This document shows positions 33,395 to 58,363 of a stretch of DNA of 64,000 nucleotides, piece after piece. How positions within the stretch are numbered: position 1 is the first letter of the stretch; every line of letters starts with the position of its first letter. The DNA is from an uncultured Ignavibacteria bacterium (GTDB lineage: Bacteria; Bacteroidota; Ignavibacteria; Tepidaquicellales; OLB5). The DNA lies in NCBI GenBank assembly GCA_937873695.1, contig CALMYL010000006.1, forward strand, positions 225,185 through 289,184, read 5' to 3'. The notes beneath the pieces were generated by a model. The model saw nothing but the letters and a program-made list of their open reading frames with translations. It did no database searches and was not told the DNA's origin. The position numbers and the translations under genes are program-made.

Positions 33395-34651
33395 TTATTT
33401 TATCAAAACCATCTTCTTAACATCCTTATACACACCAGCCTCAATAGAGTAGAAATATATACCGCTTGCAAGCTTTGAACCATCAAAGCTTACTGAATAA
33501 CTGCCTGCGTTCCCGTATTCATTATTAACCAATTCAGCTACAACCTGACCAACGGCGTTATATACTCTTAATATAACAAAAGTATTTTGCGGCAGGTCAA
33601 ATTTGATTTCAGTTGAGGGATTAAATGGATTTGGATAGTTTTGTGAAAGGTTAAATTCATTGGGTGTTAAATTGCTTAACAGTTCAATTCCAACAAACTG
33701 CCCTCCTGTTGTAGTTTTAAATATCTGTCCACCGCCGCCAACAACCCAGCCTGTTGTATCATTTATAAAATTAATATCATTTCTAAAGCCCCCGCCAGTT
33801 ATTACCTGCTGATACCAGTTAAATCCCCCGTTCGTGGATTTATAAATATAACCATTTGTGCCGCCTGCGTAGCCCGTTATCAAGTTCGTAAAAAATACCG
33901 AATAGTTTCGATTACCGCTTGGGTATTGTATTCTTGCAATACTATCCCATGTATTCCCAAAATTTGTTGTTTTGAATACAAGCTTGCCCAATCCAGAATT
34001 ATCACCTTCTCCAATTGTCCATCCAACATCTCCAACAAAACTAAGCCTGTATAAGTTAGGAGCGTCCATCAATAATGGAAGTAATACCTGGTTCCAGGTT
34101 ACACCACCGTCTGTTGACTTCATTGTTAGAGCACCGTCACCGCATAAAACGCCCGTTAATGAATTTTTAAAATAAATATCCCATAAAAAGGTAAATATTG
34201 TATGAGTAGAATCAAATGAATTTCCGCCATTTGTTGTTCGCAGAATGTAATTGCTCTTTAATATCCATCCTGTATTCTGATCTAAAAAATATACTTTCCT
34301 GAAAGTAGGTACCGGGGTAGGCTCGCTTCTTATTATCTGCCAGTTGTTTCCGCCATTGGTGCTCTTTAATATCGTATTCCACCAGCCTACACACCAAACC
34401 AGGTTCTGGTCAACTGCATCAATACCTTCAAGCCTGTTTGTTACTCCGGAGGTCTGCAGCACCCAGTTAACACCGCCATTGGTAGTTTTTACAATTACAC
34501 CGTTATCACCGCAAGCCCAGCCTGTATTTTCATTCACAAAATCAATATCAAGCAGGCTGGTGCCTACTCCGCTTGTTTGCTGTATCCATTGGCAATTGGC
34601 GAAATTGTGTGATAATGAAATGGCGAGTATTATGTAAATTACTTTTATCAT
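33395..34651 (-). CDS. Secreted Ycf48-like BNR-repeat propeller with sorting domain
   Basis: A 418-residue exported protein. A signal peptide (about 1-20) precedes six or seven BNR-type repeats with GWACGDNGVIVKTTNGG and similar KSTDGG and KTTNFG words, forming a beta-propeller (about 20-320). The C-terminal sorting domain starts at about 335 (NYPNPFNPSTEIKF...YNAVGQVVAEL...SGIYFYSIEAG...KKMVLIK). Such proteins are usually surface or extracellular. The resemblance to photosystem assembly factor Ycf48 lies in the propeller alone. The function is unknown. Confidence 0.9.
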   Translation of the reverse strand: MIKVIYIILAISLSHNFANCQWIQQTSGVGTSLLDIDFVNENTGWACGDNGVIVKTTNGGVNWVLQTSGVTNRLEGIDAVDQNLVWCVGWWNTILKSTNGGNNWQIIRSEPTPVPTFRKVYFLDQNTGWILKSNYILRTTNGGNSFDSTHTIFTFLWDIYFKNSLTGVLCGDGALTMKSTDGGVTWNQVLLPLLMDAPNLYRLSFVGDVGWTIGEGDNSGLGKLVFKTTNFGNTWDSIARIQYPSGNRNYSVFFTNLITGYAGGTNGYIYKSTNGGFNWYQQVITGGGFRNDINFINDTTGWVVGGGGQIFKTTTGGQFVGIELLSNLTPNEFNLSQNYPNPFNPSTEIKFDLPQNTFVILRVYNAVGQVVAELVNNEYGNAGSYSVSFDGSKLASGIYFYSIEAGVYKDVKKMVLIK

Positions 34652-48235: not shown

Positions 48236-48393
48236 TCACGTTAGAACATTTCGGGTTCAGCCTTATACAGTGATAACATTAAATATTCGGTTTAAATGGT
48301 AATTTCATTTATACTGCACTATGCCGATTGTTTTAGGGTTCACCCGCCGGCTATATTTGTATCACTAATTCGGTAGGGAAAATTGTAGCAGAG
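48236..48393 (+). promoter_or_regulatory. Conserved regulatory block A (hydrolase 1)
   Basis: CACGTTAGAACATTTCGGG, TTATACAGTGA, then TTG (48328-48330), 21 bp, TATATTTG (48352-48359), and leader CACTAATTCGGTAGGGAAAA...AGCAGA. Blocks B, C and D repeat these words upstream of three other secreted genes. Confidence 0.75.
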
Positions 48394-48447
48394 AAGATTT
48401 TTAAATCAACTAATTTAAAAAACTCCTCAGAAAGGAAATCTACAAAG

Positions 48448-50499
48448 ATGAATGCTATAACTTCCCAGTTCAGTAAGAAGCAATTGATCAGTTTATTATC
48501 AGGGCTTCTTTTTTTATTTGTTACAGTTTACACAACAACAGCCCAGGTAAACATTCCGGGCGGCATCAATTCATGGAAACCAAATTACTTACCCGGCGTA
48601 CCCGGAGATAATCCTTACACCGCAGTTAAAACCGATTTTACGATCACAATGAGAGACGGTATAGTTATTGACTGTCTTAAATGGATACCCGATGCACCGG
48701 CACCCGCAGGCGGATGGCCGACAGTTATCATGGTTCACGGCTACGGCGATCATAAAGGCACATTATCTGAATTCTGCCGCCAGCAGGCTGAGTATGGTTA
48801 CTACACCATGACATTCAGCGTTCGCGGTCAGGGTTTATCAGGCGGACTTTCAAACCTCATCAGCAGAACAGAAGCAATGGATCTGCAGGAAATAGTGAAT
48901 TTCGTAAGAAATGATACTGCCAGCGGCGTTGGCAGGGATAAAATACTTATCATGGGCGGCTCCCAGGGCGGCGCTTTACCGCTTATGGCTGCATCAATGC
49001 CCGGCGGCCTTAATGTTAAGGCAATTATCAATTCCGTTGCTCCTCCAAACTTCGCATCAAGCTGGATAGAGAACGGCTGCGTAAAAATGACATTATTATG
49101 GACAGTTGAATATACCCCGGATACAGCAAGATATAACGGACAGGTTAACCGTATGTCTGACTGGATCTACGCTGAAAACAAACAGTACTGGGATAGCCTT
49201 GCATACTGGCTTCCAAGAGACAGAGATTTTACATCAATACTGCAGAACAATACAGTACCGCTTTTGGTTGAAGCCTCATGGCAGGATAAGTTCTTTAACT
49301 CCGATGGCTGGCTCCAGAACATTCACCTTGTAAACTCACCAATGTCATCATACATGGGCGCAGTTCAGGGGCATGGCGGTGAACACTCATTAACCGAAGA
49401 CCAGTGGCACATGGATTGGTTCAATAACTTCTTCTTCCAGAATTTATGGGGAATGCAGACAAATATTTTCACAATTGATAAATACCAGTATGCTTCAACT
49501 ACTGCACCCGTTGGTACCAACGCATGGACCTTTGTTCATGACAGCTCAAGCACTCTTCTTAAGAACATTTCAGCCAACACAAGGCTTTATTTTAACAGCA
49601 ATCGCAGACTCAGAACAACAGCAAATCATAACTGGTTTCTTCCGGATGTTGATATCCTGAATAATGATGTAAGGAATAATTACACAATTCAGGAGGCTGT
49701 TTATGAAGAGTTCACAGGCACAGAGTTTAACGCTAACTTTAAAATAGATAACAACATATACGAAACAACCGCATTAACTTCAGATGTTGAAATGACAGGT
49801 ACACCTTCAATTAAGATTGATTACATTTCAACCGCAAAACCGTTCGTTCAGTTCAACTTCCAGGTTTATGAAGTATTCCCGAACGGTACATCAAGATTTG
49901 TAACCAGGCTTAACTACGAAGACAGGAACAACAATTATAACTTCCTTCCGTCAAGAAAACAGGTTACTTTCCGCGGCCAGGGACATTCACACATCTTCAA
50001 AGCAGGCAGCAAGATAAGGATCAACATGACAAATCTTGACAGGACCACTGAAGACGCTGCATTCTTCGGAACAAATCCGTTCGTACTGCCTTCAATGAAA
50101 CGCGGCAACAGCATTATGCTGCTCACAAATAATTTTTACATAGATCTTCCGATAGTTGCCGCAGGCAGCAACAGGCCAAACGGTGAAGGTTTATTTGCTG
50201 ATGATAACGGTGTTGTATCAGAAAACAATGTACCGAACAAATTCGAGCTTCAGCAGAACTACCCGAATCCGTTCAACCCCAATACTGTTATCAGTTATTC
50301 AATTGCCAAAGCAGAAAATGTTCAGATAAAAATTTACGATATGCTTGGCAAAGAAGTACAGACGCTTGTTAACGAAGTTAAAAACCCCGGTTCTTATAAT
50401 GTTATGTTCAATGCTCAGAACCTTTCAAGCGGTGTGTATTTCTACAGACTGACTGCAGGAAGCTTCACAGACATCAAGAAAATGACATTAGTGAAATAA
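48448..50499 (+). CDS. Secreted S15/CocE-type alpha/beta hydrolase 1 with sorting domain
   Basis: An exported serine hydrolase of 683 residues. A signal peptide (about 1-32, ends TTTAQ) is followed by the hydrolase domain (about 65-350): VMVHGYGDHKG-like oxyanion loop, nucleophile Ser in MGGSQGGALP, Asp in EASWQDKFFNSDG and His in GAVQGHGGEHS. A jelly-roll-like C-terminal domain (about 370-580) resembles the X-Pro dipeptidyl-peptidase PepX_C domain. The sorting domain (from about 600) has NYPNPFNPNTVISY and SGVYFYRLTAG. It is close to the two paralogues at 53839 and 56393. Peptidase or esterase substrate is unknown. A microprotein gene follows. Confidence 0.93.
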   Translation: MNAITSQFSKKQLISLLSGLLFLFVTVYTTTAQVNIPGGINSWKPNYLPGVPGDNPYTAVKTDFTITMRDGIVIDCLKWIPDAPAPAGGWPTVIMVHGYGDHKGTLSEFCRQQAEYGYYTMTFSVRGQGLSGGLSNLISRTEAMDLQEIVNFVRNDTASGVGRDKILIMGGSQGGALPLMAASMPGGLNVKAIINSVAPPNFASSWIENGCVKMTLLWTVEYTPDTARYNGQVNRMSDWIYAENKQYWDSLAYWLPRDRDFTSILQNNTVPLLVEASWQDKFFNSDGWLQNIHLVNSPMSSYMGAVQGHGGEHSLTEDQWHMDWFNNFFFQNLWGMQTNIFTIDKYQYASTTAPVGTNAWTFVHDSSSTLLKNISANTRLYFNSNRRLRTTANHNWFLPDVDILNNDVRNNYTIQEAVYEEFTGTEFNANFKIDNNIYETTALTSDVEMTGTPSIKIDYISTAKPFVQFNFQVYEVFPNGTSRFVTRLNYEDRNNNYNFLPSRKQVTFRGQGHSHIFKAGSKIRINMTNLDRTTEDAAFFGTNPFVLPSMKRGNSIMLLTNNFYIDLPIVAAGSNRPNGEGLFADDNGVVSENNVPNKFELQQNYPNPFNPNTVISYSIAKAENVQIKIYDMLGKEVQTLVNEVKNPGSYNVMFNAQNLSSGVYFYRLTAGSFTDIKKMTLVK

Positions 50500-50678
50500 C
50501 AAAGTTATTTCACTACCTTGTTTCTAAGGTTAGTTAAATAGTTGCATTCATCGTGTTGTGGCGGGCCGGAAATTAAGGGAAGCCGGTTCGTTAAGCCGAA
50601 AGTTAAGGGGCTCATTAATTCAGAACATACAGAACATGAGCCCAATAACCTGAAAATGATTCAAAAGGAGAAGCTCAA
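50500..50678. other. Intergenic hairpin region after hydrolase 1
   Basis: GGGCTCAT (50608-50615) pairs with ATGAGCCC (50636-50643) without a T run, so it could be a processing or attenuation hairpin between the hydrolase and the microprotein. Confidence 0.45.
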
Positions 50679-50732
50679 ATGCAGTACAGGATGAAACAAC
50701 AATCAAAATTCGCAACAAAAATGCAGCAGTAA
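50679..50732 (+). CDS. Possible 17-residue basic peptide
   Basis: A frame MQYRMKQQSKFATKMQQ preceded by AAGGAG 8 bases upstream. It is very short and no homologue is visible after hydrolase 2, so it may be chance. Confidence 0.2.
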   Translation: MQYRMKQQSKFATKMQQ

Positions 50733-50801
50733 ACAGATTTACAGAAGCAGTAAAAAAGCAGATAACAAAAAAACGAAAACAATAAAGGAGAGTTTAATAA
50801 A

Positions 50802-50888
50802 ATGGAAGCAATTATAATATTAGGATTCACAATGTTCGCAGTATTACCGTTTGCGGCAGAAGGAATCAGGATCTATTTCAGCAAATAG
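50802..50888 (+). CDS. Membrane microprotein 1 (28 aa), after hydrolase 1
   Basis: A frame MEAIIILGFTMFAVLPFAAEG... of 28 residues, one hydrophobic helix then a short basic tail IRIYFSK. An AAAGGAGAG ribosome-binding sequence lies 10 bases before the ATG, clearer than for most local genes, and a terminator follows. The same layout (hydrolase, hairpin, microprotein, terminator) occurs at 53839-56256, and the two microproteins share F..LPF...G...Y plus a C-terminal basic tail. Function unknown; they could aid secretion or regulate the hydrolase. Confidence 0.6.
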   Translation: MEAIIILGFTMFAVLPFAAEGIRIYFSK

Positions 50889-50968
50889 GTCACATTGCAG
50901 ATAATGCTGTTACCCCCTGCTCGGGGGATATGAAAAAAAATTATCCCCAGGCAAGTAAACAGCTTCAG

Positions 50969-50999
50969 AACCCGGTCTTTAAACAGGCCGGGTTTTTTT
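50969..50999 (+). terminator. Terminator after microprotein 1
   Basis: AACCCGG/CCGGGTT stem with T run. Confidence 0.8.
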
Positions 51000-51375
51000 A
51001 TGTGATGTATGCCACAAATACCCCTTCATTAGCCCCTATTAAGCATATTTTGGTCAAATTTAAGGTTTTATGCCATTACTGAGCTTGTTTCAATGCTTAA
51101 AAGCAGTTGATCTTCAGTTATGGCTGTACTAGGGAGATTCGGTGATATGCCTGTAACCTTCGACTCGAAATCATGCGTGATAGTATCAGAAAAGGCGTGA
51201 GGGTATACATTTCGGCCTGGATTTAAATCAATAAAACCCTCAAAAATCTTCCAAAAACACCATTTCTCACAAATTTCGGCTACCGTAAATACCCCTATTA
51301 TGTGTAGGGATATCGGTTAAAATCCCCTGCGGGATTTCATCATTTTGGCATAAAGTGAATGGGCTAAAAGCCCCT
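51000..51375. other. Intergenic stretch with a palindromic repeat
   Basis: No gene seen. A short palindrome-rich element TGTAGGG...CCCTGCGGG...GGGCTAAAAGCCC...CCCTACA spans about 51300-51377 and resembles dispersed repeats. Confidence 0.4.
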
Positions 51376-51500
51376 ACAGTGAATTGCTGATTCATTCGGT
51401 TTGCGGGGTAATTCCGTATTTACTTAGGTTTACGATTGTTTTAGGGTCTCCCCAAATGCTATATTTGTATCACTAATCGGTAGGGAAAATTGATAGCAGA
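51376..51500 (+). promoter_or_regulatory. Conserved regulatory block B (small secreted protein 1)
   Basis: ACAGTGAATT, TTTACTTAGGTTTACGATTG, TTG (51436-51438), 21 bp, TATATTTG (51460-51467), then CACTAATCGGTAGGGAAAAT...AGCAGA. The upstream CACGTTAGA word of A, C and D is not seen. Confidence 0.75.
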
Positions 51501-51545
51501 AGAGATTATTAAATAAATAAACTTTCTTCTAAGGGGACAATTAAA

Positions 51546-51959
51546 ATGAAAGCTATCAACACTCAAAACCGCACATCAATGAAGCAAATGGTTATTTTAT
51601 CATTTATGCTTCTTTTTTTATGCTCAGCATCAGCTAACGCATCAGATAATACCGCAAAGAACCCGGTAGTTCAGAAAACAACAGTAAGCACAACATTAAC
51701 AGCAACCGAGCTTAACAGCGAAATGCTGACAGTTGAAAACACAATGATCTTCAGTTTTTCAATTCAGAAGACTGATTATGTAAGATTTTCGATATTTAAC
51801 GCAAAAGGCCAGGAAATCAACATTATGGTTGATGACATAATGAACTCCGGCGACTTCAGCGCAGATCTGGGTCAGTTGAATCTTGAAGCAGGCACATATT
51901 ACTACCGTTTGGTAGTTGGCACTAGCAAAGAGATAAGAAAACTCAACGTTATTTATTAA
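51546..51959 (+). CDS. Small secreted sorting-domain-like protein 1 (137 aa)
   Basis: An exported protein that consists of a signal peptide (about 1-35), a Thr-rich linker (about 36-65) and one module (about 70-137) with the strand pattern of a C-terminal sorting domain: MIFSFSIQKTDYVRFSIFNAKGQEI...DFSADLGQL...GTYYYRLVVG...IRKLNVIY. The NPFNP segment typical of the domain is missing. It has no catalytic or binding part. It is a paralogue of the 52423 gene and is controlled by the same regulatory block as the hydrolases. It could be a free surface-anchor or decoy module. Confidence 0.8.
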   Translation: MKAINTQNRTSMKQMVILSFMLLFLCSASANASDNTAKNPVVQKTTVSTTLTATELNSEMLTVENTMIFSFSIQKTDYVRFSIFNAKGQEINIMVDDIMNSGDFSADLGQLNLEAGTYYYRLVVGTSKEIRKLNVIY

Positions 51960-52019
51960 GATCCCCGGTTTTTTTGCGATTTTGCAGGATATCTTTCATT
52001 TGAATTACATTAAACCCAT

Positions 52020-52050
52020 AACCCCTGTTTTACAGGGGTTTTTTATTTTT
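52020..52050 (+). terminator. Terminator after small secreted protein 1
   Basis: AACCCCTGT/ACAGGGGTT with a T run. Confidence 0.9.
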
Positions 52051-52230
52051 CACTATTACGAAACCTGCCAGATCTAAAAGACCTGGCAGGTTTATGGCAT
52101 AGTTCTGATCTGCTGCTTGTCAAAATCGCAGCTATTCAAAAACCTTCTAGCGATAATTTTACCCTCACTAGCGATAAGTTTCCATCAAATAACGCATAAT
52201 TATCAATTGTTTGAATTCTTTACTACCGAT

Positions 52231-52385
52231 ATCACGTTAGATAATTTGGGAGATAGAGCATACAGTGATTAGTGGAAAATGTAGGTTATGGCGGTAATTA
52301 CACATTTACTTAGGTTTACGATTGTATTAGGGTTAGCCCGAAGGCTATATTTGTGTACTAATTCGTAGGGAAAGAAGCAGGAGAA
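52231..52385 (+). promoter_or_regulatory. Conserved regulatory block C (small secreted protein 2)
   Basis: TATCACGTTAGA...ATACAGTGA...TTTACTTAGGTTTACGATTG, TTG (52322-52324), 21 bp, TATATTTG (52346-52353), then ACTAATTCGTAGGGAAAGA...GCAGGAG. Confidence 0.75.
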
Positions 52386-52422
52386 GAATATAATTATACT
52401 CCAAATAATGATTATTGGTCAA

Positions 52423-52836
52423 ATGAAATCAATCAGATCCCAAATTCAGGTAATCAGGCAATTGAAAGCGGCTCTTTCAATTATGCTTCTTTTTTTGCTG
52501 GCTGAAAGCTCAGTTTTAGCAGGTGATATTGATAACCGCGCAGCCGGCGCATATGAGATGCTTGGCGCCCTAACAAGTGAAGAGATCTCAGCCGCGGGCA
52601 ATCTATCCGTTGCGGCTAATACTCTTTTCAGCTTTTCTATACCGCAGAATGAATATGTCAGATTTACCGTGTATGATACAAAAGGAAAAGAAATTGCCGT
52701 GCTGATAAATGATTTCAAAAGAGCAGGTGATTTTTCAGCTGACCTGAACAAAGCAAAACTTACCAAAGGCACATACTACTACCGCCTGGTTGTTGGCAAG
52801 TACAGAGAAATAAGAAGGCTTGATATAATAAAGTAA
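52423..52836 (+). CDS. Small secreted sorting-domain-like protein 2 (137 aa)
   Basis: A paralogue of the 51546 protein: a signal peptide (about 1-33, IMLLFLLAESSVLAG), a short linker, and the module FSFSIPQNEYVRFTVYDTKGKEI...GDFSADLNK...GTYYYRLVVGKYREIRRLDIIK. I place the start at 52423 (MKSIRSQI), because its sister and the hydrolases also begin MKAI or MNAI; the upstream ATG at 52408 would add five residues. It is exactly the same length as its paralogue. It has its own regulatory block and terminator. Confidence 0.8.
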   Translation: MKSIRSQIQVIRQLKAALSIMLLFLLAESSVLAGDIDNRAAGAYEMLGALTSEEISAAGNLSVAANTLFSFSIPQNEYVRFTVYDTKGKEIAVLINDFKRAGDFSADLNKAKLTKGTYYYRLVVGKYREIRRLDIIK

Positions 52837-52860
52837 CTATCACCACATCACAAAAAGTGT

Positions 52861-52894
52861 AACCCCTGTTTATGAAAATAAGCAGGGGTTTTTT
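52861..52894 (+). terminator. Terminator after small secreted protein 2
   Basis: AACCCCTG/CAGGGGTT with a T run, similar to the one after its paralogue. Confidence 0.85.
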
Positions 52895-53050
52895 GTTATG
52901 GTATGGGGTCAGCTCGACGGGGCGAATTACTGCCTTACGTATCTGTTCTTAGATTTCAGCTTCGGAGGAGCTGCATATTGATTTTTCTTGTCTACCCTAA
53001 CAATTACATTCCGCAAAGTCTTCAATCCCGCTTAAGCAGAAACATGGGAC

Positions 53051-53215
53051 TGCTCCGAAGGTCCGAAGGACTCCTTTGGAGAGTCCCTTCGGGACAAAAA
53101 GCGCAGAAAACGAGAGACTCTGTGGGGACGTAAAAAATTGCAAAAATACCCCCTCTCAATCTCCCCCTGCTGGGGGGAGAAGAGCCCGCCTTGGGCGGGC
53201 GAAGTAGGGGTAATT
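53051..53215. repeat. Palindromic repeats with CCGAAGG hairpin
   Basis: CTCCGAAGG-TCCGAAGGACTCCTTTGGA-GAGTCCCTTCGGGAC (53053-53095) nests two copies of the hairpin word. A CTCCCCCTGCTGGGGGGAG and GCCCGCC-TTG-GGCGGGC element follows at about 53160-53200. Confidence 0.6.
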
Positions 53216-53276
53216 GCAGCTCAGTAGTCACGGTTAATACTTTTGTTGATTACATACATAAAATACACAAAAATGC

Positions 53277-53496
53277 ATTCTCACTATGAATATTCATAAT
53301 GAGAATTTTCACGTTTCTAAAGTGCTGAAATATCAATCCATTCTCACTATGATTCTCACGCAGAAACCATTCTCAACATGAATATATTCATAATGAGAAA
53401 ACAAGAAATAAGAAAAACGGGCAGTAATCGCGAAATACTGCTCCCAAATCCCGCAAAAAAAAATATCGTTTTCATAGTGAGAATCATAGTGAGAAA
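53277..53496. repeat. Eight-copy TTCTCACTATGA motif array
   Basis: Copies at 53278, 53340, 53352 (partial) and 53369 on the plus strand, and 53293, 53387, 53471 and 53484 on the minus strand, all matching TTCTCA(C/T/A)TATGAA closely. Several copies form inverted pairs (ATTCTCACTATGAATATTCATAATGAGAAT). Two more-separated groups flank an unrelated spacer. It lies between block C's gene and block D. Confidence 0.75.
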
Positions 53497-53637
53497 GTTC
53501 AGGTAATCTAAGCTATTTAAACTGCCCTGATCCGGTGCTAATTGCTGCAAAAACCAAGATAGTAAACATATATAAATCAATGAATAATGAAAAATCCTTT
53601 AAATTCATCAAAATTTTCACCTTCATAGCTCACCCTA

Positions 53638-53793
53638 TCACGTTAGAAAATATCGGGCTACCGTTATACAGTGAATCAAGGATTTATTAGGTTATGAGGG
53701 TAATTACATATTTACTTACACTTACGATTGTATTAGGGTCTTGCCGTGGGCTATATTTGTAACATACTAATTCGTAGGGAATGCGATAGCAGA
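53638..53793 (+). promoter_or_regulatory. Conserved regulatory block D (hydrolase 2)
   Basis: TATCACGTTAGAAAATATCGGG...TTATACAGTGAATC...GGTAATTACATATTTACTTA, TTG (53728-53730), 21 bp, TATATTTG (53752-53759), then ACTAATTCGTAGGGAA...AGCAGA. Confidence 0.75.
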
Positions 53794-53838
53794 CAGATTA
53801 TTTTATTAACTAATCTATCTGAAAGGATATCTATTAAG

Positions 53839-55872
53839 ATGAATGCTATCAAAACCCACAGTACCAGGAGACTTTTGATGATTTGCTTATCAATGGCTCT
53901 TTTTTTTATGACCTACACTGAGGTTACTTTTACCCAGCAAAAGGTTATGAATAAACCAAAAAACCTTAACACATGGACTCCATCCTTTTTACTGCCCAGC
54001 ACCACAAGCGATGCTAATTTAGTAGTAACACGCACTGATTTCACAATAACAATGCGGGACGGCGTTATAATCGACTGTTTAAAGTACGTTCCCGAAGGAA
54101 CACCGCCTGCAGGCGGCTGGAATACTGTTATTATGCATCACGGCTACGGCGATCACAAAGAAACACTCGCTGATTTCTGCCGTGCGCAGGCTGAGTATGG
54201 TTATTATACTATGACATTCAGCGTTCGCGGCCAGGGACTCTCAGGCGGCTTATCAAACCTCATAAGCACAATTGAAGCTGACGACCTGATCGAAATAGTT
54301 AACTGGATAAAACGTGATTCAGTTAACGGCTCAAATCCTTCAAAGATCCTAATCATGGGCGGTTCACAGGGCGGCGCAGTTCCTATGATAGCTGCTACAA
54401 GAGGCATGCAGGTTGCTGCTATTATCAATTCAGTTGCTCCCCCTGATTTTGCATCAAGCTGGATAGAGAACGGCTGCGCTAAAATGTCATTATTATGGAC
54501 AATTGAATATACACCTGATACAGCAAGATATAATGCTCAGGTTGACAGGATGTCAGACTGGATCTACGCTGATACCAAACCGTATTGGGATAGCTTAAAA
54601 CACTATATGCCTATTGGCAGAGATTTTGTAACAGGTCTTAACAGTATTACCACACCTCTGTTAATAGAAGCAGCATGGCAGGATAAATTCTTCAACGCGG
54701 ATGGCTGGATTCTGAATATTGATAAAATCTCAAATGCTCCGATGTCTTCATATCTGGGTGCAGTTAGAGGTCACGGTTCAGATATATCATTGACTGAAGA
54801 TGTTTGGCATATGGATTGGTTCAACAATTTCTTCTTCCAGACACTATGGGGAATGCAGACACCGATATTTGACCAGGCTAAATACCAGTATGCTTCAACA
54901 CATTTTCCGGTTGTAAACAACCAGTATTTTTCATTCACACATGATAGTTCACATACGCTTTTAAGAACGTCATCTGTTCCGATGAAACTTTACCTTAACA
55001 AGAACGGCGTTTTAAAAACAACAGTTCAGTCAGGCAGTAATACTGTAACATTAAAGAACAGAATTACAAACGGCTATACTTTACAGCAGGCAGTAAATGA
55101 TGAGTTTACCGGAACAAACTTCCAGAGTAAGTTCAAAAAAGATTCAGTTAAGTTCACATCTGCATCATTAACAGCTCCGCTTGAGTGGACCGGTACACCA
55201 GTTGTAAGGCTTGATTATAAATCAGCAGCACAGACATTCTGCCAGTTCAACTACCAGATATATGAAGTATTGGCAAGCGGCGAAAGAAGATTCATAAACC
55301 GCGCGAATTTTACAGACAGGAATTACACAAAGGGTCAGAGAAGACAGGTAACATTCCGCGGTCAGGCTCATTCACACTTATTCCAGGCAGGAAGCAAGAT
55401 CCAGATAATCATCACAAATCTTGATAAAGCGCATACAGATGTTGAGTTTTTCGGAACAAATCCGTTTGTGCTTCCTACAATGAAAAACGGCGACCACACT
55501 GTATATTTAAGCAGCAATTCATATGTTGAACTGCCGATAATTACAAATGCAGGCGCAAGATTTGATCTCGCTTTCGAAGAAGATAGATCAGAGAAGAATA
55601 CCAATCCGTATTCATTCAGCCTGTCACAGAATTTCCCCAACCCGTTCAACCCAAGCACAATGGTCCAGTACACACTGGCAGAAGCGCAGAACGTTGAGCT
55701 TAAGATCTATGATCTTTTGGGAAGAGAAGTACAGACATTAGTTAACACAGCACAAAACCCCGGTTCGTACAATGTTATGTTCAATGCTCAGAACCTTTCA
55801 AGCGGTGTTTATTTCTATAAACTTACCGCAGGAAGCTTTACAGACATTAAGAAAATGACTTTGGTAAAATAA
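53839..55872 (+). CDS. Secreted S15/CocE-type alpha/beta hydrolase 2 with sorting domain
   Basis: A close paralogue of hydrolase 1, 677 residues from MNAIKTHSTRR. I use this start because hydrolase 1 also begins MNAI and an AAAGGA sequence precedes it; the longer frame (53746) reads into the leader. Signal peptide (about 1-30), hydrolase domain with HGYGDHKET, Ser in MGGSQGGAVP, Asp in AAWQDKFFNADG and His in RGHGSDIS, then a jelly-roll-like domain and sorting domain (NFPNPFNPSTMVQY, SGVYFYKLTAG). Hydrolases 1 and 2 share their last 30 residues almost unchanged. A microprotein gene follows. Confidence 0.92.
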   Translation: MNAIKTHSTRRLLMICLSMALFFMTYTEVTFTQQKVMNKPKNLNTWTPSFLLPSTTSDANLVVTRTDFTITMRDGVIIDCLKYVPEGTPPAGGWNTVIMHHGYGDHKETLADFCRAQAEYGYYTMTFSVRGQGLSGGLSNLISTIEADDLIEIVNWIKRDSVNGSNPSKILIMGGSQGGAVPMIAATRGMQVAAIINSVAPPDFASSWIENGCAKMSLLWTIEYTPDTARYNAQVDRMSDWIYADTKPYWDSLKHYMPIGRDFVTGLNSITTPLLIEAAWQDKFFNADGWILNIDKISNAPMSSYLGAVRGHGSDISLTEDVWHMDWFNNFFFQTLWGMQTPIFDQAKYQYASTHFPVVNNQYFSFTHDSSHTLLRTSSVPMKLYLNKNGVLKTTVQSGSNTVTLKNRITNGYTLQQAVNDEFTGTNFQSKFKKDSVKFTSASLTAPLEWTGTPVVRLDYKSAAQTFCQFNYQIYEVLASGERRFINRANFTDRNYTKGQRRQVTFRGQAHSHLFQAGSKIQIIITNLDKAHTDVEFFGTNPFVLPTMKNGDHTVYLSSNSYVELPIITNAGARFDLAFEEDRSEKNTNPYSFSLSQNFPNPFNPSTMVQYTLAEAQNVELKIYDLLGREVQTLVNTAQNPGSYNVMFNAQNLSSGVYFYKLTAGSFTDIKKMTLVK

Positions 55873-56256: not shown

Positions 56257-56392
56257 TATAGAGTTATTATATCAATGGTGAATAGAGAGTAAGTACAGTT
56301 AATTCAGGTGCATCTTTGACTTTTATTATTGTATTGGAACAAAAAGGCATAATAGTTAAATTTATGTATTATATATTAGCAGGGAATACAAA

Positions 56393-58363
56393 ATGAGATC
56401 AGCCAGATTTACAATATTGGCTGTGGTTGTCATTATCCTTTTTACAGGATTAAGCAGCTCACAGCAGAAAAGAGCAAGGGATAGTTACGAATTCTTAAAG
56501 CTTCTCCCCAAATACTCCAATTCAGATGCATTGCCGGTTACAAGGGTGGATTTTACCGTTACTTTACGTGACGGCACTATATTAGACGCTCTGAAATTTA
56601 TACCTCAGGGCACGCCGCCTGCGGGTGGCTGGCCGACCGTTGTTTTTGTACACGGGTATGGCGATAACAAAGAAACCCTTGCGGGTTTCGCGGCTGCACA
56701 GGCTGAGTATGGCTACTATACCACAACTTTCAGCATGCGCGGGCAGGGGCACTCAACCGGACTTTCAAATCTTATTTCAACCACCGAGGCGCAGGATATG
56801 ATAGAGTTTATTGATTTTATCAAACAGGATACGAAAAGCGGCATCAATCCAAACAATATCCTGGTAATGGGCGGTTCGCAGGGCGGGCTGGTTCCCTTTA
56901 TGGCTTGCACAATGGGTATGAATGTAAGGACCATTATCTCAGCGCTTGCGCCCCCGAATTTTGCATCAAGCTGGATAGAGAACGGATGTATTAAAATGAC
57001 TTTGTTGTGGACAGTAGAATATACTCCTGATACCGCAAGATATACCCCGCAGGTTGCAAGAATGAGCGACTGGATCTATGCTTCTGCAAAACAATACTGG
57101 GATAGCCTTGCATTCTATTTACCGCAGAACAGGGATTTTATGACGGGTATAGCTGACAATAGGGTACCCCTGATAATGGAAGGCTCATGGCAGGATAAGT
57201 TCTTTAATGCTTCCGGTATTATGAAAGCATCTGAACTGAATACCGGGTCAACACTCAGGCTGTATCTCGGTGCAGTGCAGGGTCACGGCGGTGATAATTC
57301 ACCAACCGAAGATACATGGCATATGCAGTTCTTTAACGACTGGTTCTATTACTGGCTTTTTCCGTACAACGGCACAAAGCTGCCGCAGGCAAATTTTGAT
57401 TATGCTTCTACGCAGTATCCTGTAAATGGTTTGTACTGGAGCTTTAAGCATGACAGCTCAAAGGTCGCGCTGCAGAATATCACCACACCATACAGGCTTT
57501 ATTTCAATACCAATAACAGGCTTACAACAACAGCCGGAACTAATAACAGCAGACGTGTTTCCATAAGGAATCGTGTTACAGGCGGGCTCACAATGCAGGA
57601 AGCGGTGAATGAAGAATTTACCGGTACAACTTTCACTTCAAAATTCAAGAAGAATTCAGTATCGTTTACAAGCGCAGCGCTCACCTCAGATAAAAAGTGG
57701 CTTGGCACTCCCAAAGTGAATCTTGATTATTTATCAACAGCGTCAACTTTCACGCAGTATAATTTCCAGGTTCTCGAGGTAATGCCAAACGGCAAAGAGA
57801 AGCTTATCAACAGGATTAATTACACTGACAGGAACTATACGGCCAGCAGCAGAAGGACAAAGAATTTTGAAGGGCAGGCTCATTCGCATATTTTTAAAAC
57901 AGGCAATAAGATCAAAATAATTATTACAAATCTTGATACCCACGCGGATGACGCATGGTTTTTGGGTACAAATCCGTTTGTACTGCCGGTGCTTAATAAC
58001 GGGTACAATTATGTATATTTGAATAATAATTCATACATTGATCTGCCGCTGGTAAATGCAGTGAACGAAATTTCAGATAACACAGGTGTTAATTCACCGT
58101 ATACGTTTTCGCTAAGTCAGAATTATCCAAATCCCTTTAACCCTGTAACAATGATAAATTATAGTATACCCCAAAAAGGATTAGTTACAATAAAAGTGTA
58201 TGATGTTACAGGAAAGCTGGTTAAAACTTTAGTTAACGAAACAATGGAAGCCGGCAGCAGTTCAGTTTTGTTTGATGCTTCATCACTTTCCAGCGGGGTT
58301 TATTTCTATAATATAGTTTCCGGCAGTTATACTGATACGAAGAAAATGATTCTGGTTAAATAA
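56393..58363 (+). CDS. Secreted S15/CocE-type alpha/beta hydrolase 3 with sorting domain
   Basis: The third paralogue, 656 residues: signal peptide (about 1-24), hydrolase domain with VHGYGDNKET, Ser in MGGSQGGLVP, Asp in EGSWQDKFFNASG and His in GAVQGHGGDNS, jelly-roll-like domain, and sorting domain (NYPNPFNPVTMINY, SGVYFYNIVSG). It lacks regulatory block A-D and has no microprotein after it, so it is regulated differently. The three genes are a tandem expansion of one ancestor. Confidence 0.92.
   Translation: MRSARFTILAVVVIILFTGLSSSQQKRARDSYEFLKLLPKYSNSDALPVTRVDFTVTLRDGTILDALKFIPQGTPPAGGWPTVVFVHGYGDNKETLAGFAAAQAEYGYYTTTFSMRGQGHSTGLSNLISTTEAQDMIEFIDFIKQDTKSGINPNNILVMGGSQGGLVPFMACTMGMNVRTIISALAPPNFASSWIENGCIKMTLLWTVEYTPDTARYTPQVARMSDWIYASAKQYWDSLAFYLPQNRDFMTGIADNRVPLIMEGSWQDKFFNASGIMKASELNTGSTLRLYLGAVQGHGGDNSPTEDTWHMQFFNDWFYYWLFPYNGTKLPQANFDYASTQYPVNGLYWSFKHDSSKVALQNITTPYRLYFNTNNRLTTTAGTNNSRRVSIRNRVTGGLTMQEAVNEEFTGTTFTSKFKKNSVSFTSAALTSDKKWLGTPKVNLDYLSTASTFTQYNFQVLEVMPNGKEKLINRINYTDRNYTASSRRTKNFEGQAHSHIFKTGNKIKIIITNLDTHADDAWFLGTNPFVLPVLNNGYNYVYLNNNSYIDLPLVNAVNEISDNTGVNSPYTFSLSQNYPNPFNPVTMINYSIPQKGLVTIKVYDVTGKLVKTLVNETMEAGSSSVLFDASSLSSGVYFYNIVSGSYTDTKKMILVK

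Follow-up and report, generated by a model that had tools for sequence, protein, structure and literature searches.

Why do two hydrolase genes and two genes for small secreted proteins carry a shared block of sequence ahead of their start codons? The four genes lie in a 64,000-nucleotide stretch of DNA from an uncultured Ignavibacteria bacterium (assembly GCA_937873695.1, contig CALMYL010000006.1), hereafter the window. A sequence-only reading had placed blocks A to D before two hydrolases (A and D) and two sorting-domain-only proteins (B and C), and had suggested one regulator or a leader element for all four. We found the blocks where it had put them, ahead of these genes. Our own reading, to which we give a probability of roughly 60%, is that the blocks comprise a likely promoter and an RNA leader predicted to pair with the opening codons of the gene that it precedes, and that they probably set the translation of a small group of cargo proteins of the type IX secretion system (T9SS).

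The leader probably pairs with the first codons of its gene

By sequence comparison, the blocks have two layers: conserved DNA upstream of a putative −7 box (TAnnTTTG) and a leader downstream of it (Table 1). We built a sequence-only profile (R1) from the four window blocks and searched 39 genomes, this one included. At E ≤ 0.01 it gave 57 hits in 17 genomes, 51 of them with a downstream open reading frame (ORF) of at least 80 aa. The hits were classed as H (hydrolase), S (small), X (short-ORF hits), and E and F (genes of the distant members). Leader counts exclude one case at a contig end (G003:C114), and the alignment of R1 hits holds 55 of the 57, leaving out G024 and G028, which have no downstream ORF. 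Alignment A4 contains 43 of 51 leaders, without window C and seven other S rows. Alignment A6 contains 35 of 43 H/S/X leaders; window C, five S rows and two H rows were left out. Of these, the leader-codon helix (P1b, below) is missing from window C, from three S rows and from one H row, and is present in two S rows and one H row.

Codons 3 to 5 (GCT ATN, in proteins that start M-N/K-A-I) are complementary to the leader letters that precede the AGA of TAGCAGA; we refer to this predicted helix as P1b. Paired strands include TTGATAGC/GCTATCAA in window B, TACAATAGC/GCTATTGTA in G003, TTTTTATAGC/GCTATAAAAA in G013 and TACTTATAGC/GCTATAAGTA in G012. P1b spans at least 5 bp in 38 of the 44 H/S/X leaders, at least 6 bp in 32, at least 7 bp in 21 and at least 8 bp in 10. 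The P1b pairing score was 15.39 for leaders with their own genes and 13.14 ± 0.28 when leaders were swapped between genes (0 of 200 swaps). The third base of codon 4, which is mostly Ile and mostly silent there, formed a Watson-Crick pair with the leader base in 22 of 35 cases against 10.5 expected (0 of 20,000 permutations); among orthologues of D this pair is G-C, G-U or A-U. On a plain MAFFT alignment of 35 leaders, P1b covariation was 0.256 against 0.137 ± 0.015 for row-swapped controls (0/300). When rows were permuted only within the four paralogue classes, the excess persisted, both for Watson-Crick pairs (74 of 105 against 62.2; 0/5,000) and for standard pairs (86 against 75.9; 1/5,000).

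The start codon has a putative hairpin of its own, P3, in which CATCT-like letters pair with the AGATG of the start. Its mean stem is 4.29 bp in 42 leaders, compared with 2.81 ± 0.17 when shuffled and 3.54 ± 0.12 when halves were swapped, and variants such as ATCAC/GTGAT and CATTT/AAATG preserve the pairing. P3 covariation was 0.168 against 0.112 ± 0.013 (0/300). We count the covariation of P1b and P3 as shown by comparing sequences, and because of covariation we call the leader a structured RNA; its reach into the coding sequence is likewise supported. The "leader element" of the sequence-only reading thus gains support.

Two further helices are well suggested. In most single folds a hairpin, P2, comes after the GCAGA word; on a model-fitted alignment of 54 matches its covariation was 0.351 against 0.177 when shuffled (0/500) and 0.09–0.11 when slid. 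P1a is a GGG/CCC-like extension involving codons 5 to 7 that is open to 34 of 44 leaders, and two S2 leaders that lack P1b have GGGG opposite CCCC. Taken together on the plain 35-leader alignment, which is not fitted to structure, all helices were 83.2% paired with a covariation of 0.191 against 0.138 ± 0.008 (0/500; slid, 0.06–0.11), and extra pair types showed no excess over shuffles (259/500). P1, P2 and P3 are predicted to meet in a three-way junction that encloses the ribosome site and the AUG. When folded without constraints from the predicted RNA start to about codon 12, A (−23.0 kcal/mol), B (−19.6) and D (−17.3) formed P1; neither C nor hydrolase 3 (z +0.42) takes this fold. P1b was predicted with a mean probability of 0.93 among the 21 H leaders, 0.68 among the 20 S and 1.0 among the 3 X. 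RNAalifold returned zero pairs on both the MAFFT and the model-fitted alignments, probably because loop lengths vary; after this null result the structures were named and their pairs counted. No Rfam family overlapped the blocks at E up to 5, or the surroundings of leader A at E up to 10, and with no match to a curated covariance model we rejected membership of a known family.

Several observations weigh against this picture. P1b is missing from 6 of the 44 leaders, window C among them, which keeps the promoter and the leader words and has lost the main helix. Among the E and F leaders no leader-codon helix is seen (pairing score 11.9; swapped, 12.3). In the folds of all four F leaders the 5' motif pairs instead with the bases before and over the AUG, with one reaching z −5.68; we rejected such pairing as a general feature. 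The permutations remove kinship between genomes only in part. With the plain MAFFT alignment P2 covariation does not stand out from row-swaps (39/300), and the fitted alignment on which it passes leans to the structure, so P2 rests on that alignment and on the folds. P1a varies too little for a covariation test. Folding energies are modest (z −2.38 in A, −3.52 in B, −0.79 in D and +0.88 in C), and several other window genes have equally low z-scores or as much predicted leader-codon pairing; energy alone therefore proves nothing, and covariation carries the case. Finally, the AUG is predicted to be mostly unpaired in S leaders (0.58, compared with 0.21 in H and 0.37 in X).

The upstream layer resembles a Bacteroidota promoter

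In each of the four blocks TTG stands exactly 21 bp from TATATTTG, as the sequence-only reading had noted, and we take this TTG to be the upstream promoter box. The words said to be shared hold in part: TACAGTGA and TATATTTG are in all four blocks and CACGTTAGA in three (B lacks it). Other quoted words were inexact, as GGTTTACGATTG is letter-perfect in B and C alone and ACTAATTCGGTAGGGAAAA in A alone, with B one T short and C and D reading TTCGTAGGGAA. AGCAGA is present in A, B and D, and block C has AGCAGG instead.

The upstream words are widely kept in the 44 H/S/X hits (TACAGTGA in 40, GTAATT in 42, CGATTGT in 40 and TTAGGG in 37). TTG-N21-TAnnTTTG occurs in all 44 and in 7 of 10 E/F hits, which agrees with a Bacteroidota sigma-A −7 box. 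The upstream part of the E/F hits is degenerate (TACAGTGA in 1, GTAATT in 6, CGATTGT in 0 of 10), and they keep TATnTTTGTA and GCAGA in 9 of 10 each. We regard the conserved 5' leader words, those of E and F included, as candidate binding sites. As given in the part of PMC9723704 used here, the flavobacterial rule makes TAnnTTTG the Bacteroidota −7 box, at −12 to −5. From this rule and the position of TAnnTTTG, we infer an RNA start about 5 nt past the box, just ahead of the conserved leader words. With the Bacteroidota housekeeping promoter the blocks share the TAnnTTTG box (PMC9723704) and a TTG 21 bp upstream; unlike that promoter, the blocks add TTAGGG between the boxes and about 70 conserved bp upstream.

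Table 1. Positions of the blocks, leaders and genes (window coordinates unless a contig is named).
Feature	Position	Strand	Details
Block A, full extent	48236-48452	+	ends at start codon
Block B, full extent	51352-51550	+	ends at start codon
Block C, full extent	52232-52427	+	ends at start codon
Block D, full extent	53638-53843	+	ends at start codon
Block A, upstream DNA	48236-48359	+	TACAGTGA 48266-48273; TTG 48328-48330; 21 bp; putative −7 box TATATTTG 48352-48359
Block B, upstream DNA	51352-51467	+	no CACGTTAGA; TACAGTGA 51375-51382; TTG 51436-51438; TATATTTG 51460-51467
Block C, upstream DNA	52232-52353	+	TACAGTGA 52261-52268; TTG 52322-52324; TATATTTG 52346-52353
Block D, upstream DNA	53638-53759	+	TACAGTGA 53667-53674; TTG 53728-53730; TATATTTG 53752-53759
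Leader A	48364-48466	+	predicted RNA start to codon 7; unconstrained fold and covariation
Leader A, P1a	48376-48380 with 48462-48466	+	GGGAA with TTCCC
Leader A, P1b	48383-48389 with 48454-48460	+	TTGTAGC with GCTATAA
Leader A, other elements	48391-48449	+	P2 hairpin 48391-48428; SD 48429-48436; start-codon hairpin P3 48438-48449
Leader B	51472-51559	+	P1b of 8 bp, TTGATAGC 51490-51497 with GCTATCAA 51552-51559; P2 hairpin between
Leader C	52357-52422	+	degenerate; GTAGGGAA and AGCAGG words kept; P1b absent
Leader D	53764-53857	+	P1a, GGG 53777-53779 with CCC 53855-53857
Leader D, P1b	53785-53790 with 53845-53850	+	GATAGC with GCTATC
Leader D, other elements	53821-53841	+	SD 53821-53827; start-codon hairpin 53828-53841
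Gene A	48448-50499	+	683 aa; alpha/beta hydrolase (S15/CocE-like) with T9SS sorting domain
Gene B	51546-51959	+	137 aa; signal peptide and sorting-domain-like sandwich only (model); TIGR04183 23.4 bits, cut-off 23
Gene C	52423-52836	+	137 aa (142 aa from upstream ATG); signal peptide and sorting-domain-like part only; TIGR04183 23.5, cut-off 23
Gene D	53839-55872	+	677 aa; alpha/beta hydrolase with T9SS sorting domain
Further members	contig C8, 361114-361284 and 374462-374627		R1 matches
SD, Shine-Dalgarno word.

The element was found on a small gene set, mostly in one family

Across its own 3.78-Mb genome R1 matched six places at E ≤ 0.01, namely the four blocks and two sites on contig C8. 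The window blocks scored E 2.5e-39 to 3.4e-44, as expected because they built the profile; the two additional matches (E 4.0e-7 and 1.7e-4) stand directly before sorting-domain genes and carry the leader words with a degenerate upstream block. Two more matches were weak and partial (E 0.048 and 4.1). Hydrolase 3 (56393) lacks the element, as the sequence-only reading had stated, and no profile match occurs there; at its start (56363-56395) we noted TTAGCAGGGAATACAAAATG, which recalls the leader words of the E genes. In this genome a profile R2 found the six members and one match on C17 (E 5.9) that stands before unrelated genes, which we took as chance. A short word pattern also matched C9 and C11 in this genome.

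The R1-positive genomes were all 13 of the genus, two of the same family and two weak matches, without a downstream ORF, from another family; the block recurs in two sister genera, and the best E outside its own genome was 8e-42. Apart from one ORF cut by a contig end, the other 50 of the 51 downstream ORFs end in a sorting-domain-like tail, as judged by eye from the printed ends, with profile tests for the six own-genome members only. The sequence-only reading had proposed such a scan: the similarity exceeds chance, the matches precede sorting-domain genes, and they do not occur before housekeeping genes at an equal rate. With stricter filters, under which weak hits are lost, R2 matched 15 of 391 genomes of the class, all from the window's own family, and R3, which includes the codon helix, matched 2 of 395 genomes of the phylum, both in the genus. 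These counts led us to reject a wide occurrence beyond the family. The 14 stretches that a strict promoter-plus-leader pattern matched among named species genomes each bear the title Ignavibacteria bacterium or Chlorobi bacterium OLB5, the latter placed under Ignavibacteriota by NCBI. Block D had no match in phage records. A general leader for T9SS cargo was also rejected: sorting-domain matches in this genome number at least 150 and leaders six (E ≤ 0.05), so that the element marks only a small subset.

A predicted clamp on translation, and the alternatives

A strong Shine-Dalgarno (SD)-like word of at least 5 nt precedes all 21 H genes and 15 of the 19 S genes, compared with 5 of 28 other window genes, and is mostly missing in E (0 of 5) and F (1 of 4). 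The SD is predicted to sit in the P1-closed junction, with the AUG often inside P3. In the parts of the two sources used here, initiation usually falls when its region of the mRNA is structured (PMC6847099), and rates can shift over 100-fold through structured standby sites (PMC3936740). The simplest reading of the leader is a translational clamp, acting as fixed tuning or as a switch. Pairing of leader RNA with the first codons would enclose the predicted ribosome-binding site and start codon in a three-way junction, and this closed form may limit initiation at the unusually strong SD. Some signal, whether a protein, a metabolite, ribosome traffic or secretion state, could open or close the leader, and the conserved upstream DNA may bind one transcription factor. 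The hydrolases and the sorting-domain-only proteins would then share both layers of control. A single regulator, as had been suggested, is plausible in view of the genus-wide conservation of the DNA ahead of the −7 box. The element is not confined to the four genes. More speculatively, and with the odds somewhat against it, the junction of leader and codons 3 to 7 could be a new regulatory RNA class, with signal-peptide codons as part of the RNA, that senses a ligand, a protein or secretion state and switches translation of a T9SS-exported set, in which case the M-N/K-A-I start would be dictated by RNA and not by the protein.

The likeness could instead lie in the DNA only, with one transcription regulator bound upstream of the −7 box and leaders alike through duplication of genes together with their 5' ends. 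The genus-wide retention of TACAGTGA, GTAATT and CGATTGT fits such an origin, as does the single cluster shared by H and S genes. We consider it quite unlikely, given that leader and codons vary together, within paralogue classes too, and that in the sister-genus genome G014 the profile match starts only mid-profile, yet P1b is 9 bp long with different letters. That the coding side is conserved for the protein, as a signal-peptide start M-N/K-A-I, and matches the leader by coincidence would explain why H and S proteins have N-terminal words in common. This is highly improbable: codon 4 in its third base, and the codon after it, track the leader letter, two S2 proteins (G005 and G011) retain GCTAT two codons later, and the E and F proteins, which are exported too, lack the word.

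Two other alternatives accept a folded leader. The ompA and slpA mRNAs carry stabilising stem-loops in their 5' untranslated regions, and, like these abundant surface-protein mRNAs, most leaders here have a hairpin near the predicted 5' end, with a strong SD and exported products. A constitutive stabiliser, in which the folded 5' end slows decay and nothing is sensed, nevertheless strikes us as unlikely, because it needs neither codon pairing nor a start-codon hairpin, the two best supported helices; unlike the ompA and slpA stem-loops, the leader has co-varying helices with the start codon and codons 3 to 5. In many leaders the AUG lies within a short A/U-rich hairpin, as would suit an RNA thermometer that opens when this hairpin melts on warming. 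We find it barely credible and rejected it: by computation, mean AUG accessibility was 0.33 at 10 °C and no more than 0.47 at 55 °C, with no marked opening of SD and AUG, and P1b stayed steady at 0.81–0.82. Control by CsrA was rejected as well, with CsrA found in 0 of 21 genomes (this one included) by a search whose control detected it in 3 of 14 known genomes.

The clamp that we favour has known relatives. Autogenous leaders such as that of rpsO/S15 fold over the start codon and first codons, and the leader described here is predicted likewise to span SD, AUG and early codons and to control initiation. The genes differ, being exported T9SS cargo instead of ribosomal proteins, as does the closure of the junction by leader-codon pairing. 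With translational riboswitches the leader shares a conserved 5' structure, fixed words and the potential to hide SD and AUG; unlike them, it matches no Rfam family, was found in one bacterial family and has codons within its helix. As reported in the part of PMC7712824 used here, PorXY-SigP controls T9SS genes, and the sorting-domain protein PorA affects that control. A small T9SS-linked gene set under common control, with S proteins that also bear a sorting domain, recalls that system, which in the same part concerns genes for T9SS parts in Porphyromonas, whereas our leader concerns cargo. A 523-aa PglZ protein was the only possible PorX candidate in a search that sought PglZ-domain proteins only. 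We found no description of such an element among titles and abstract openings of the non-subscription literature; leaders with structure over the AUG are already known, and as far as searched this architecture and gene set are new.

If correct, this reading defines an RNA element present throughout the genus and joined to a strong SD that few other window genes have, on six genes of a genome rich in sorting-domain matches. The mostly silent codon positions permit a clean compensatory test. It would also mean that a conserved signal-peptide start can arise from RNA structure, and, should the leader sense secretion, feedback from T9SS export to cargo synthesis becomes testable.

Genes behind the leaders and neighbouring features

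All six own-genome leader genes pass the TIGR04183 cut-off (type A sorting domain), B and C barely, and the genome encodes a SprA-like T9SS protein. Genes E (489 aa; L012 3453-4919, minus strand) and F (880 aa; L012 15624-18263, minus strand) on C8 are both above the T9SS sorting-domain cut-off; they encode large sorting-domain proteins with no other Pfam family above cut-off, and their leaders lie about 13 kb apart. A search with the S protein gave 52 homologues, and the names among the matches listed were Ignavibacteria or Bacteroidetes bacteria. The modelled S protein has a C-terminal seven-strand sandwich of high confidence and no separate N-terminal domain. Foldseek matched it to generic Ig-like folds in the PDB, with TMq at most 0.43 and no T9SS entry among the 50 matches listed.

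We note several smaller features. The full leader also precedes ORFs of about 54–65 aa in three relatives (L050:10365, plus strand; L049:9041, minus; L056 near 7694, minus), whose products look like a signal peptide followed by a short tail. Between genes A and B, window positions 50802-50888 (plus strand) hold a conserved 28-aa ORF (MEAIIILGFTMFAVLPFAAEGIRIYFSK), often after an AGGAG-like word; we counted 13 copies, spread over 10 of the 17 cluster loci searched, and two genomes have it twice in tandem. Another sorting-domain gene (33395-34651, minus strand) matches no leader model, and its start region folds unusually well, with z −4.93 and a fully paired AUG. Directly upstream of block D, positions 53259-53495 contain repeated near-copies of CATTCTCACTATGA and its reverse complement.

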